64,000 bases of DNA from Candidatus Promineifilum breve. Its GTDB lineage: Bacteria; Chloroflexota; Anaerolineae; Promineifilales; Promineifilaceae. The translations under genes and the position numbers were made by a program. The notes below the pieces were generated by a model. The model saw only the letters and a list, made by a program, of their open reading frames with translations. It did no database searches and was not told where the DNA came from. The stretch lies in contig NZ_LN890655.1 in NCBI RefSeq assembly GCF_900066015.1, forward strand, positions 248,001-312,000. The letters are read 5' to 3'. Below, one piece after another: positions 34,928 through 47,726 of the stretch (the stretch's first letter is position 1; the number at the start of each line of letters is the position of its first letter).

Positions 34928-36274
34928 TTATTGACCGGGCGTGATGCGGTAAATGCCGCCGTTCCCATAGCTGATGGCGTATACCTCGCCGTTGACGTCT
35001 TCGCCGAAGGACGAGATGATCAGATCGCTATCCAGGACAACATCGGCCAGCCAGCCGCCGCCTTGCGGGAACAAGCGCCAGATGATGCCGGAGCAATAGT
35101 CGGCGACGAAGTAATTGCCGCCCATCTCCGGGTAGAGCAGGCCGCGATAGATGTAACCGCCGGTGACCGAGCAGCCCTGATCATGCTGGTACTCAAAGAT
35201 CGGCAGGGTCAGGCCGGTTTGATCGCACGTCTCGCTTTCGAAACAGTGCGTGGCCTCCATGATGTTCCAGCCGTAATTCTCGCCGCCGGCGCTGGCCGCG
35301 GGTTGGAAGTTCACTTCTTCCCAGATGTTCTGGCCCACGTCGCCCATGAACAAGTCGCCCGTCTGCCGGTCGAAGGAGAAGCGCCACGGGTTGCGCACGC
35401 CATAGGCCCAGATTTCCGGCTGCGCTCCGGCTGTGGCGACAAACGGATTGTCGGCCGGTATGGCGTAGGCCTCCGCCTCGGCAGCCACGTCGAGGCGCAG
35501 GATTTTGCCCAAGACCGTCGTCAGACTTTGCCCGGCCCCCAGCGGATCATTGGCGCTGCCGCCGTCGCCCAGCCCGGCATAGAGATAGCCATCCGGCCCA
35601 AAGGCCAGCATCCCGCCGTTATGGTTGGGGTAGGGCTGATCGACGGTCAGGTAGTCAACTTCGCTATCGGGATCGGCGCGATAGGGATCATCGGCCATTA
35701 CCGAAAAACGGGCGATGTGGGTGTCGCCATTGAAGTCAGTGTAGTTTACATAAAATTGACCCTGATTAGCGGCCCCTTCGTCGGCATAATCAGGATGGAA
35801 AGCCAGCCCCAGCAGACCCTGCTCGCTGGCGGTTGCCCCCACCCGGTCGGTAATATCCAGAAAAGGGGTTTCCAGCAGTTGGCCGTCCTCGATAATGCGG
35901 ATGAGGCCGACCTGCTCGGTGACGAACAACCGCTCGTCGAAGGCGTGGGTCAGGAACGTCGGCTGGAGTAGCCCCTGAGCGATGACCGGCTCCAGAGCGA
36001 CCGACGCGACCGGGCTTTGGGGGGTGGGGGATGGCACGGTCGTCGCCTCCAGGGTGGGCGTCGCGTTTGGCGTGGCCGTTGGCTCCGATTCGACAAAGGG
36101 GATATAGGTATTGGTCGCTTCCAGGGTGACCGCGGGGGCGGGTAAGGTCGCGCTCGTCACCACCGGCGTCGTTTCGGGAGCGGCCGGCGGCTCGACTTCG
36201 CCCCCTCCACAGCCAATCAATAAACTGCCGCATAGGGCGACTACGATCAACAACAATTTTTGCATGGCGTCCAT
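34928..36274 (-). CDS. PQQ-type soluble sugar dehydrogenase, lipoprotein
   Basis: A glucose/sorbosone dehydrogenase-fold beta-propeller. The N terminus is a lipoprotein signal (LLLIVVALCGSLLIGCGGG), followed by a Thr/Pro-rich linker of about 75 residues. The catalytic domain has ASEQGLLGLAFHPDY, NHNGGMLAFGPDGYLYAGLGDGG and YGVRNPWRFSFDRQTGDLFMGDVGQNIWEEV, typical of the YliI/Asd family. It probably acts outside the membrane on aldose sugars with PQQ. ATG at 36274 chosen. Confidence 0.88.
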   Translation of the reverse strand: MDAMQKLLLIVVALCGSLLIGCGGGEVEPPAAPETTPVVTSATLPAPAVTLEATNTYIPFVESEPTATPNATPTLEATTVPSPTPQSPVASVALEPVIAQGLLQPTFLTHAFDERLFVTEQVGLIRIIEDGQLLETPFLDITDRVGATASEQGLLGLAFHPDYADEGAANQGQFYVNYTDFNGDTHIARFSVMADDPYRADPDSEVDYLTVDQPYPNHNGGMLAFGPDGYLYAGLGDGGSANDPLGAGQSLTTVLGKILRLDVAAEAEAYAIPADNPFVATAGAQPEIWAYGVRNPWRFSFDRQTGDLFMGDVGQNIWEEVNFQPAASAGGENYGWNIMEATHCFESETCDQTGLTLPIFEYQHDQGCSVTGGYIYRGLLYPEMGGNYFVADYCSGIIWRLFPQGGGWLADVVLDSDLIISSFGEDVNGEVYAISYGNGGIYRITPGQ

Positions 36275-44499: not shown

Positions 44500-46140
<1,641 letters not shown>

Positions 46141-46158
46141 AATACGCCTCCCAAAAAC

Positions 46159-46188
46159 AAAAAAGCCGGGGTCTTGATTGCCCCGGCT
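46159..46188 (-). terminator. Attenuator terminator in the ABC-F leader
   Basis: On the minus strand AGCCGGGG (46188-46181) and CCCCGGCT (46171-46164) pair perfectly around a 9-base loop and run into six T. The terminator ends 19 bases before the ABC-F start codon, so it must be suppressed for expression. CGGGGCA in its left arm (46185-46179) is complementary to TGCCCCG in the last codons of the leader ORF (46235-46229). Confidence 0.9.
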
Positions 46189-46221
46189 ACGATTCACAAA
46201 AACTTTAGCTTTACATAAAAT

Positions 46222-46317
46222 TCATGATCGGGGCACACTGATACAAGGCCGTCCCGTGCTGGAAGCCAGCAGATGGGTCTGAACGATCTCGCGCGTGTAG
46301 CCGACCATGAAAGACAT
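46222..46317 (-). CDS. Leader ORF upstream of the ABC-F gene
   Basis: A 31-codon ORF begins at ATG 46317 (MSFMVGYTREIVQTHLLASS) and ends at TGA 46222, 33 bases before the terminator. Its last codons GTG CCC CGA TCA contain TGCCCCG, able to pair with the terminator left arm. A ribosome finishing the ORF would cover this arm; a ribosome stalled inside, for instance by a drug, would leave it free to act as antiterminator. The ribosome binding site is weak (GGGGTAAG at some distance). Coding status rests on this arrangement, not on homology. Confidence 0.6.
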   Translation of the reverse strand: MSFMVGYTREIVQTHLLASSTGRPCISVPRS

Positions 46318-46342
46318 GGATTTCAGCTTACCCCAAACACGT

Positions 46343-46371
46343 CTGACAGGCAACTATCGGCGTGATATACT
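46343..46371 (+). promoter_or_regulatory. Promoter of the binding lipoprotein
   Basis: CTGACA (46343-46348) and TATACT (46366-46371) are 17 bases apart, each one mismatch from consensus. Transcription would start near 46378, only 8 to 20 bases before the candidate start codons. The divergent ABC-F leader must start close by. Confidence 0.65.
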
Positions 46372-46385
46372 GGCCCATTGGGACG

Positions 46386-47726
46386 ATGAAATCAACAATG
46401 AGCAAAACCAATCGCCTGATCTTGACGTTCATTCTCTTAATCCTGTTCGCCACGGCTAGCGGCTGCACGCTACTACAGGAGTCGCCGGGCATCGTGGTCA
46501 CCCCTTCGCCGGGGGCCACCGCCCCGGCGGCGACGCCCGCGGCTCTGGCGACGAGCGATCTGTCCGGCTTGCCCGTGCCCGCCCAATCCATTGCCCAACT
46601 GCGCCTCTGGCTACCGCCCGAGATCGGCGCGCGCACCGAGGCCGGCGCGGCCGAACTGGCTGACCAACTGGCGGCCTTCCGCGCCGAGCAGGGGGCGCTG
46701 GAGATCGCCGTCGAACAAAAGCCGGTCGAGGGGCCGGGGGGCATCCTGGCCTTCCTACAGGCCGGGCGGTTGGTGGCCCCGTCGGTCATGCCCGACCTGG
46801 TGGCCGTGCCGACGGCGCTGCTGGCCGACCCCCGCGCGCGCGACTTGTTTTTTCCTCTGGATACGCGGCTGGCGGCCGATAGTCTAGGCGACATCTACCC
46901 CGCGCCGGTGTCACAAATCGTCCGCGATGACGCGTTTTTCGGCGCTCCTTTCGCCACGGCCGGACTGACGCATCTGCTCTATGATCCGGCGGTGATCTCG
47001 GGCACCATCCCGCTCAACTGGTCGCAGTTCATTTCGGTCACCAATCACACCCTGGTATTGCCGGCCGACAGCCGCGAGGGGGCGTTGCTCGGCCTCCAAT
47101 TCTATCTGGCCGAGGGCGGCAACCTGACCGACGACACGGGCCAGCCGGTATTGGAAACGGAACCGTTGGCGCGCGCCCTGGCGACGATTGGCTTGCGCAA
47201 GGAAAACCTGTTGCAGAGCCACCAACTGAAGACGCTGGATGAGGCGTGGCAATATCACCAGTTGGGCACGAGCGACTTCATGTGGACGCGGGTCGAACAT
47301 CTGTTGGGGCTACAGGCGGCCGATCCGCGACTCGTGGGCGCTCAGGCCTATTCGGCCGTGCCCGGTGTCTCCGGCGCATTGGTGCCGCTGACGACGAGTT
47401 GGGCCTGGGCCATCACGACGAGCGACCCGGCCCGCCAGGCATTGGCCGGCGAACTGATCACCTTCCTGACGTCGGCCGAAAACATGGCCGCCTGGAATGG
47501 GCGTAGCCAACTGTTGCCGGCGCGCCGTGAGGCGATGGCCTTGCTGGGTGAGCTGAACCCCTATTATCAATTTGCCGGGCTGGAATTGGAACGCGCCCAG
47601 CCCATGCCCGTCAACGAAGCCAGCCGGGTCATGGATGCGCTGGGCGACGCGGTCTTTCAGGTGTTGACGACCGAGACGTCGCCGGTGCTCATCGCCGAGC
47701 AGGCCGCATTGAGCCTGCGCCAATAG
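46386..47726 (+). CDS. Extracellular solute-binding lipoprotein (ABC transporter type)
   Basis: About 446 residues. Lipoprotein signal ILTFILLILFATASGC with the lipobox Cys near residue 28, then a Thr/Ala/Pro linker. The body resembles family 1 solute-binding proteins (FFGAPFATAGLTHLLYDPAVI, LNWSQFISV, AGELITFLTSAENMAAW). No permease or ATPase gene lies nearby, so transporter partner and ligand are unknown. Start is ATG 46386 or 46398; the predicted transcription start fits either. The 3' end overlaps the hydrogenase protease gene antisense by 70 bases. Confidence 0.8.
   Translation: MKSTMSKTNRLILTFILLILFATASGCTLLQESPGIVVTPSPGATAPAATPAALATSDLSGLPVPAQSIAQLRLWLPPEIGARTEAGAAELADQLAAFRAEQGALEIAVEQKPVEGPGGILAFLQAGRLVAPSVMPDLVAVPTALLADPRARDLFFPLDTRLAADSLGDIYPAPVSQIVRDDAFFGAPFATAGLTHLLYDPAVISGTIPLNWSQFISVTNHTLVLPADSREGALLGLQFYLAEGGNLTDDTGQPVLETEPLARALATIGLRKENLLQSHQLKTLDEAWQYHQLGTSDFMWTRVEHLLGLQAADPRLVGAQAYSAVPGVSGALVPLTTSWAWAITTSDPARQALAGELITFLTSAENMAAWNGRSQLLPARREAMALLGELNPYYQFAGLELERAQPMPVNEASRVMDALGDAVFQVLTTETSPVLIAEQAALSLRQ

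Follow-up and report, generated by a model that had tools for sequence, protein, structure and literature searches.

On the minus strand of the 64,000-nucleotide stretch of Candidatus Promineifilum breve DNA analysed here (the window) lies a gene for an ABC-F ATPase, preceded by a short leader in which a promoter, an upstream open reading frame (uORF), competing RNA helices and an intrinsic terminator can be recognised. What is known of ribosome-mediated attenuation at resistance-type genes comes mostly from Firmicutes and, in some cases, from Actinobacteria; Chloroflexota is a large, mostly uncultured phylum. The features of the locus, from promoter to gene, are listed below with the basis of each, followed by another attenuator present in the window.

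46325..46353 (-): sigma70-type promoter, -35 TTGCCT at 46353-46348, 17-nt spacer, -10 TAAGCT at 46330-46325 (sequence)
46222..46317 (-): leader ORF, 31 codons, MSFMVGYTREIVQTHLLASSTGRPCISVPRS and stop (sequence; spacing and pN/pS in relatives)
46301..46311 (-): 5' strand of helix P1, UUCAUGGUCGG, codons 3-6, pairing with 46231-46221 (fold; cognate versus non-cognate duplexes)
46229..46235 (-): antiterminator strand 2, TGCCCCG (GTGCGCC-type in relatives), within the last codons (permutation, covariation, spacing)
46221..46231 (-): 3' strand of P1, CCGAUCAUGAA, in the stop-codon region, common to P1 and the antiterminator inner stem (permutation tests)
46209..46218 (-): TTATGTAAAG element, invariant as TTATGTNAA in an alignment of 27 ABC-F leaders
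46179..46185 (-): strand 3, CGGGGCA, whose partner is strand 2 (antiterminator) or the terminator right arm (sequence, permutation, covariation)
46159..46188 (-): intrinsic terminator, arms 46188-46181 and 46171-46164, then a T-run (sequence; hairpin -16.4 kcal/mol)
46147..46152 (-): Shine-Dalgarno sequence GGGAGG of the ABC-F gene (sequence)
44500..46140 (-): ABC-F ATPase, 546 aa, GTG start (NCBIfam NF000355 profile, sequence)
21719-21568 (-): ilvB-type attenuator, leader MKPYIQNDLVLALIGLVLIINKGAHAVG and stop, terminator AAACCGCCC-AACA-GGGCGGTTT, just before an acetolactate-synthase-like ORF

The ABC-F protein, whose GTG start at 46140 has a homologous start codon in the relatives, scores 424 bits against NF000355 (cut-off 380), a broad family of 'ribosomal protection-like' ABC-F proteins. 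It falls far under the curated cut-offs of Vga, Lsa, Sal, Msr, OptrA and CplR, the experimentally proven ARE ABC-F families, and also under the equivalog cut-offs of the housekeeping proteins EttA, Uup and YheS/YbiT; a separate true EttA (940 bits) is encoded elsewhere in the genome. From these profile scores the gene is probably a ribosome-protection gene, and it may protect against a drug. The upstream neighbour (46362-47726, plus strand) is divergent, and therefore the terminator cannot belong to another gene and acts on the ABC-F transcript alone. A promoter-like site for this lipoprotein-like neighbour (46343-46371, plus strand; CTGACA-17-TATACT, extended -10) overlaps the promoter of the ABC-F leader on the opposite strand.

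Relatives were found by protein, after which their upstream DNA was read. Among the 30 ABC-F orthologues of the window's family with upstream DNA (58-100% identity), 28 possess the leader with its whole arrangement of promoter, short ORF, strand 2, fixed UUAUGUNAA and terminator, and two (L022, L045) are without it. Judged by this comparison, the leader parts are conserved in a Chloroflexota lineage. The initial annotation had proposed such a comparison and had named lack of the ORF or terminator in orthologues as evidence against its reading; both were retained in 28 of 30. Together with L023, a leader of another family, these 28 form the set of 29 leaders used below.

The 31-codon ORF (46317-46222) lies exactly where the initial annotation had placed it. 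The -10 box of its promoter ends 7 nt before the leader ATG, and in 28 of the 29 leaders the promoter ends 6-9 nt before the ATG, compared with 2.8% of shuffled regions. As leaderless genes are recognised by a TANNNT box some 12 bp ahead of their start codon (PMC3160421), this spacing suggests that the uORF is leaderless, with transcription starting at or just before its AUG. In L023, the exception to the register, as well as in other families and distant relatives, this ORF follows a Shine-Dalgarno sequence instead, which is therefore an independent sign that the ORF is translated. Moreover, its in-frame pN/pS within four genera was 0.48, 0.15, 0.17 and 0.69 (the last in g10), compared with 0.74-5.8 in the two other frames, and by this measure purifying selection acts on the leader peptide, in its own frame, in three of the four genera. 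In a comparison with RAPP-type arrest peptides, which have a RAPP/RAPG-like motif at the stall site, P[SC]RSAP or xAPP endings were seen in many of the leaders and an exact RAPP in none; the frame in which strand 2 is read also differs between leaders.

The terminator (AGCCGGGG-CAATCAAGA-CCCCGGCT and T-run, 46188-46159) is perfect and lies about 19 nt 5' of the ABC-F start codon; that it is intrinsic, stands 33 bases past the stop of the leader ORF and directly precedes the ABC-F GTG had been claimed before and holds. In the 5.03-Mb genome it is the sole occurrence of AGCCGGGG..CCCCGGCTTTTTT, and two GCCGGGG/CCCCGGC hairpins were observed in the window against 0.08 expected. The previously reported complementarity of TGCCCCG (46235-46229) to CGGGGCA (46185-46179) is exact, and this pairing also covaries among relatives. 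Strand 2 can either pair with 46185-46179 or be held in P1, a further helix of the uORF start with the stop region (extended by 46299-46295 with 46238-46234) that competes with the antiterminator; since both use the same strand, P1 and antiterminator are mutually exclusive. The idea that strand 2 is protected solely by a local 1:2 hairpin found weak support (P=0.014), and P1 was put in its place. Calculated folding energies of the window's leader were -40.4 kcal/mol for the P1 domain, -18.9 for the antiterminator and -16.4 for the terminator.

The pairings were tested by comparing the fit of each leader's own two strands with that of strands swapped between genera. Across 14 genera this gave P=4.5e-4 for the antiterminator 2:3, P<=5e-5 for P1 (first 20 nt with the stop region, cognate versus non-cognate) and P=0.0027 for the antiterminator inner stem (stop region with linker), against P=0.84-0.98 for control regions; these tests keep some phylogenetic dependence; restricted to the 7 leaders of the window's genus, they gave P values of 0.05-0.16. 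RNAalifold, applied to 32 diverse leaders, picked 2:3 unprompted as the consensus structure. For this helix 13 double-change cells were counted versus 3.2 after shuffling (0/500), with 0-2 in slid controls, and double changes were found in five of its seven pairs. Compensatory changes link TGCCCCG/CGGGGCA of the window to TGCGCC/GGCGCA, to GTGTACC/GGTACAC in L021 and to GGTGCGCCC/GGGCGCACC in L091. By comparison among relatives, then, a translated uORF, mutually exclusive pairings, a terminator and a promoter register are shown for this leader type.

Between strand 2 and the terminator lies the UUAUGU element, almost invariant as TTATGTNAA across the 29 leaders. The uORF ATG is located 95-100 nt 5' of it in all 29, and in 28 of them a GCGCC-type strand (or variant) has its first base exactly 18 nt ahead of TATGT. 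Conversely, the position of the stop codon varies from -24 to +10, and in leaders with the stop at +4 or beyond, strand 2 would stay uncovered by a ribosome during termination. Fixed spacings of ATG and strand 2 to the element combined with a moving stop imply that these distances are set by RNA or transcription and not by translation termination. When RNA polymerase stands at UUAUGUNAA, strand 2 has just emerged from it; by analogy with the vmlR leader discussed below, UUAUGUNAA is proposed as a candidate RNA-polymerase pause site. Several other roles for the element were discarded: a start-stop ORF (AUGUAA), as L012, L013 and L023 have AUGUCA and L044 has AUGUUA; a second promoter, as the -35 was inconsistent in the leaders inspected; a partner of the Gly-Phe-Thr codons, as covariation was absent on inspection; and a genome-wide element, as only four TTATGTAAAG occur in the genome, one of them in such a leader. 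A second TTATGTAAA in the window, at 35745-35753, lies inside coding sequence.

We consider it likely that the leader is a ribosome-mediated transcription attenuator, with termination as its default and readthrough on ribosome stalling. Transcription would start at or just before the leader AUG, and ribosomes would begin on the leaderless uORF. With normal translation, or with none, P1 would close in the nascent RNA and hold strand 2, so that the 3:4 hairpin could form and RNA polymerase would stop at about 46159. A ribosome stalled in the uORF, most simply by a ribosome-targeting antibiotic and with others queued behind it, would occupy the 5' strand and block P1; strand 2 could then capture strand 3, the terminator would be prevented and the ABC-F gene transcribed. 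By pausing RNA polymerase just after strand 2, UUAUGUNAA may keep ribosome and polymerase in step. We infer stalling as the trigger, antibiotics as the signal and polymerase pausing. Termination as the default and readthrough on stalled translation follow from the fold energies given above and from the calculated accessibility of strand 2, which was 0.27 in naked RNA, 0.65 with nt 1 to about 70 occupied and 0.29 with a single early stall. Of the antitermination by an early-stalled ribosome put forward in the initial annotation, the attenuator with its translated ORF and real pairing, both conserved, is thus upheld, but an early stall alone does not free strand 2 (0.29 versus 0.65). P1, the promoter with its leaderless start and the UUAUGU element are additions to that annotation. 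Drug induction of the ABC-F gene is plausible, the same leader family preceding other resistance-type genes, and the leader is probably a built-in sensor that switches such genes on when ribosomes stall.

What characterises resistance-gene attenuators elsewhere is found here as well: a leader ORF that is translated (by pN/pS in three of four genera and the promoter register), an intrinsic terminator between this ORF and the gene, and an antiterminator and terminator that exclude each other. In the vmlR leader of Bacillus subtilis, SL-1 serves as the anti-antiterminator; a ribosome that a drug has stalled on the uORF opens it, and pausing of RNA polymerase takes place opposite this uORF (PMC9226507). 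Like vmlR, an ABC-F gene for PLSA resistance, the present system combines an ABC-F target, a uORF at the base of an anti-antiterminator, a competing antiterminator and an intrinsic terminator (PMC9226507); P1 is such an anti-antiterminator, with the uORF start at its base. However, the uORF of vmlR has a Shine-Dalgarno sequence and encodes a tripeptide, with arrest at initiation (PMC9226507), whereas here it is predicted to be leaderless, is 31 codons long and encodes a conserved peptide; the sequences are dissimilar, and the UUAUGUNAA element is family-wide here. With msrD of streptococci the leader shares an ABC-F gene under ribosome-mediated transcription attenuation via a leader peptide (PMC10314930), but in msrD the peptide, MsrDL, is short, the stalled ribosome obstructs the terminator, sequence and host phylum differ, and the drug response, predicted here, is proven (PMC10314930). 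The bmrB-bmrCD system of B. subtilis has a leader ORF, three alternative stem-loops and an ABC exporter, comparable to the exporter-linked relatives described below (PMC4191407), yet its sequence is unrelated and its terminator lies inside the leader ORF (PMC4191407). Finally, tlrB (yxjB) of B. subtilis also combines a leader peptide with a terminator, and its drug induction needs RNA-polymerase pausing, where we only propose a pause (PMC6851288); a competing antiterminator was not found there, and it has a NusG-dependent pause site after a hairpin and an RYR arrest motif (PMC6851288).

Other explanations were weighed against the attenuator reading. A feedback attenuator, in which the leader peptide itself stalls ribosomes and the ABC-F product relieves the stall, thereby setting its own level without drug, would account for the conserved leader peptide and has a precedent in MsrD: ribosomes that stall on MsrDL are rescued by MsrD, which in this way represses its own expression from the leader (PMC10314930). 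Such feedback is absent in VmlR (PMC10314930), however, and the same leader core stands before genes for exporters, an MFS pump and GNATs, none of which acts on the ribosome; this reading is rather unlikely. The strict spacing of strand 2 and UUAUGU, kept while stop codon and reading frame across strand 2 vary, could also point to a riboswitch or protein-bound RNA switch with UUAUGUNAA and strand 2 as its binding site and an incidental ORF; against this speak the in-frame purifying selection, the conserved promoter-to-ATG register and the fact that in other families the uORF has its own Shine-Dalgarno sequence, and we regard it as very improbable.

An attenuator sensing charged tRNA would have the same general parts, leader ORF and terminator, as does the ilvB leader in the same window, but runs of a single residue are absent from all leader peptides and the genes downstream are resistance-type and not biosynthetic, so that this is still harder to credit. 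The ilvB-type attenuator resembles the ABC-F leader in having a leader ORF and then a terminator just before its gene; its peptide is rich in Leu, Val and Ile (LVLALIGLVLII) and it lacks UUAUGU. Being an ordinary amino-acid sensor, it is irrelevant to the ABC-F leader. The earlier suggestion that two attenuators of the same plan indicate a mechanism common in this genome is therefore abandoned: the other one is this ilvB-type leader, and the ABC-F leader is unique in the genome. The least probable explanation is a constitutive leaky terminator that merely sets low expression; in its favour is the perfect terminator 19 nt before the start codon, but competing helices conserved with covariation in 14 genera argue against it.

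The general kind of mechanism is known. At gathering score, Rfam gave no match in the window and only two tRNAs in 16 leader loci, and at E<=1 the only match was to an sRNA (E=0.39) on the opposite strand. Such an element in Chloroflexota was not found in the literature searched (open-access full text), within which the leaderless uORF, the UUAUGUNAA register and the use of one leader type over several resistance-type families are new. With strong comparative support, ribosome-mediated attenuation would thus be extended to Chloroflexota, where the leader ORF is leaderless and is accompanied by a highly conserved element not in Rfam. Since the leader type marks ABC-Fs, exporters and acetyltransferases, it could be used to find genes, including those of unknown role, that are switched on under translation attack.

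Of 396 genomes of the class, 44 had matches to a covariance model of the leader 3' half (R1), the weakest of them near E = 0.01; one leader was found in the window's genome. Outside the window's family these matches precede ABC-F orthologues (44-54% identity where measured), a second ABC-F subfamily (32%; L073, L080), DrrA-like ABC ATPases (L077, L091, L095, L096, L099), an MsbA-like exporter (L098), GNAT acetyltransferases (L089, L093) and a Mef-like MFS pump (L086). A second model (R2) matched in 30 of 400 genomes of the phylum, usually in front of MsbA-like exporters and GNATs, with as many as three copies in a single genome of family f29. Among the closest named relatives, which are Chloroflexi and Anaerolineales MAGs, two (L134, L138) show a model match directly ahead of the ABC-F gene; bacterial ABC-Fs from other phyla, among 47 loci searched, gave only terminator-like partial matches. 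Weaker matches were read singly, and those without a recognisable strand 2 were dropped; L087/L088 (recX), L092, L097, L103, L121, L122 and L133 were removed in this way as terminator-only or chance matches.

In many relatives the leader peptide ends in P-[SC]-R-S-A-P, mostly 2-4 residues before the stop, of which PCISVPRS in the window is a divergent form. We hypothesise that this is a peptide-level arrest motif. The core sequence is also kept where the reading frame differs (e.g. L073, L093, L038), and therefore a constraint at the RNA level is needed there. Tentatively, and with some doubt, one core switch (GUGCGCC strand 2, UUAUGUNAA or a replacing hairpin, and a GGCGCAC-containing terminator), often with a P-[SC]-R-S-A-P-x-x peptide, may constitute a class-wide 'ribosome stress' attenuator family of Anaerolineae, standing before unrelated resistance-type genes, with leaderless or Shine-Dalgarno-led uORFs and a new nascent-chain arrest motif as sensor.

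Some further observations concern these relatives. The leaders L098 and L109-L131, before MsbA-like exporters and GNATs, carry P[SC]RSAP and a few residues at the peptide end, and the N-terminal parts of their peptides are unrelated. In many of the f29 leaders (L107-L131) UUAUGU is replaced by a conserved hairpin, TGACC...GGTCA, a candidate pause hairpin. In two relatives, recX has a strong terminator just before its start codon (L087, match 610-686; L088, G016:C101:11555-11637); these terminators are without strand 2 or UUAUGU and possibly belong to another attenuator.
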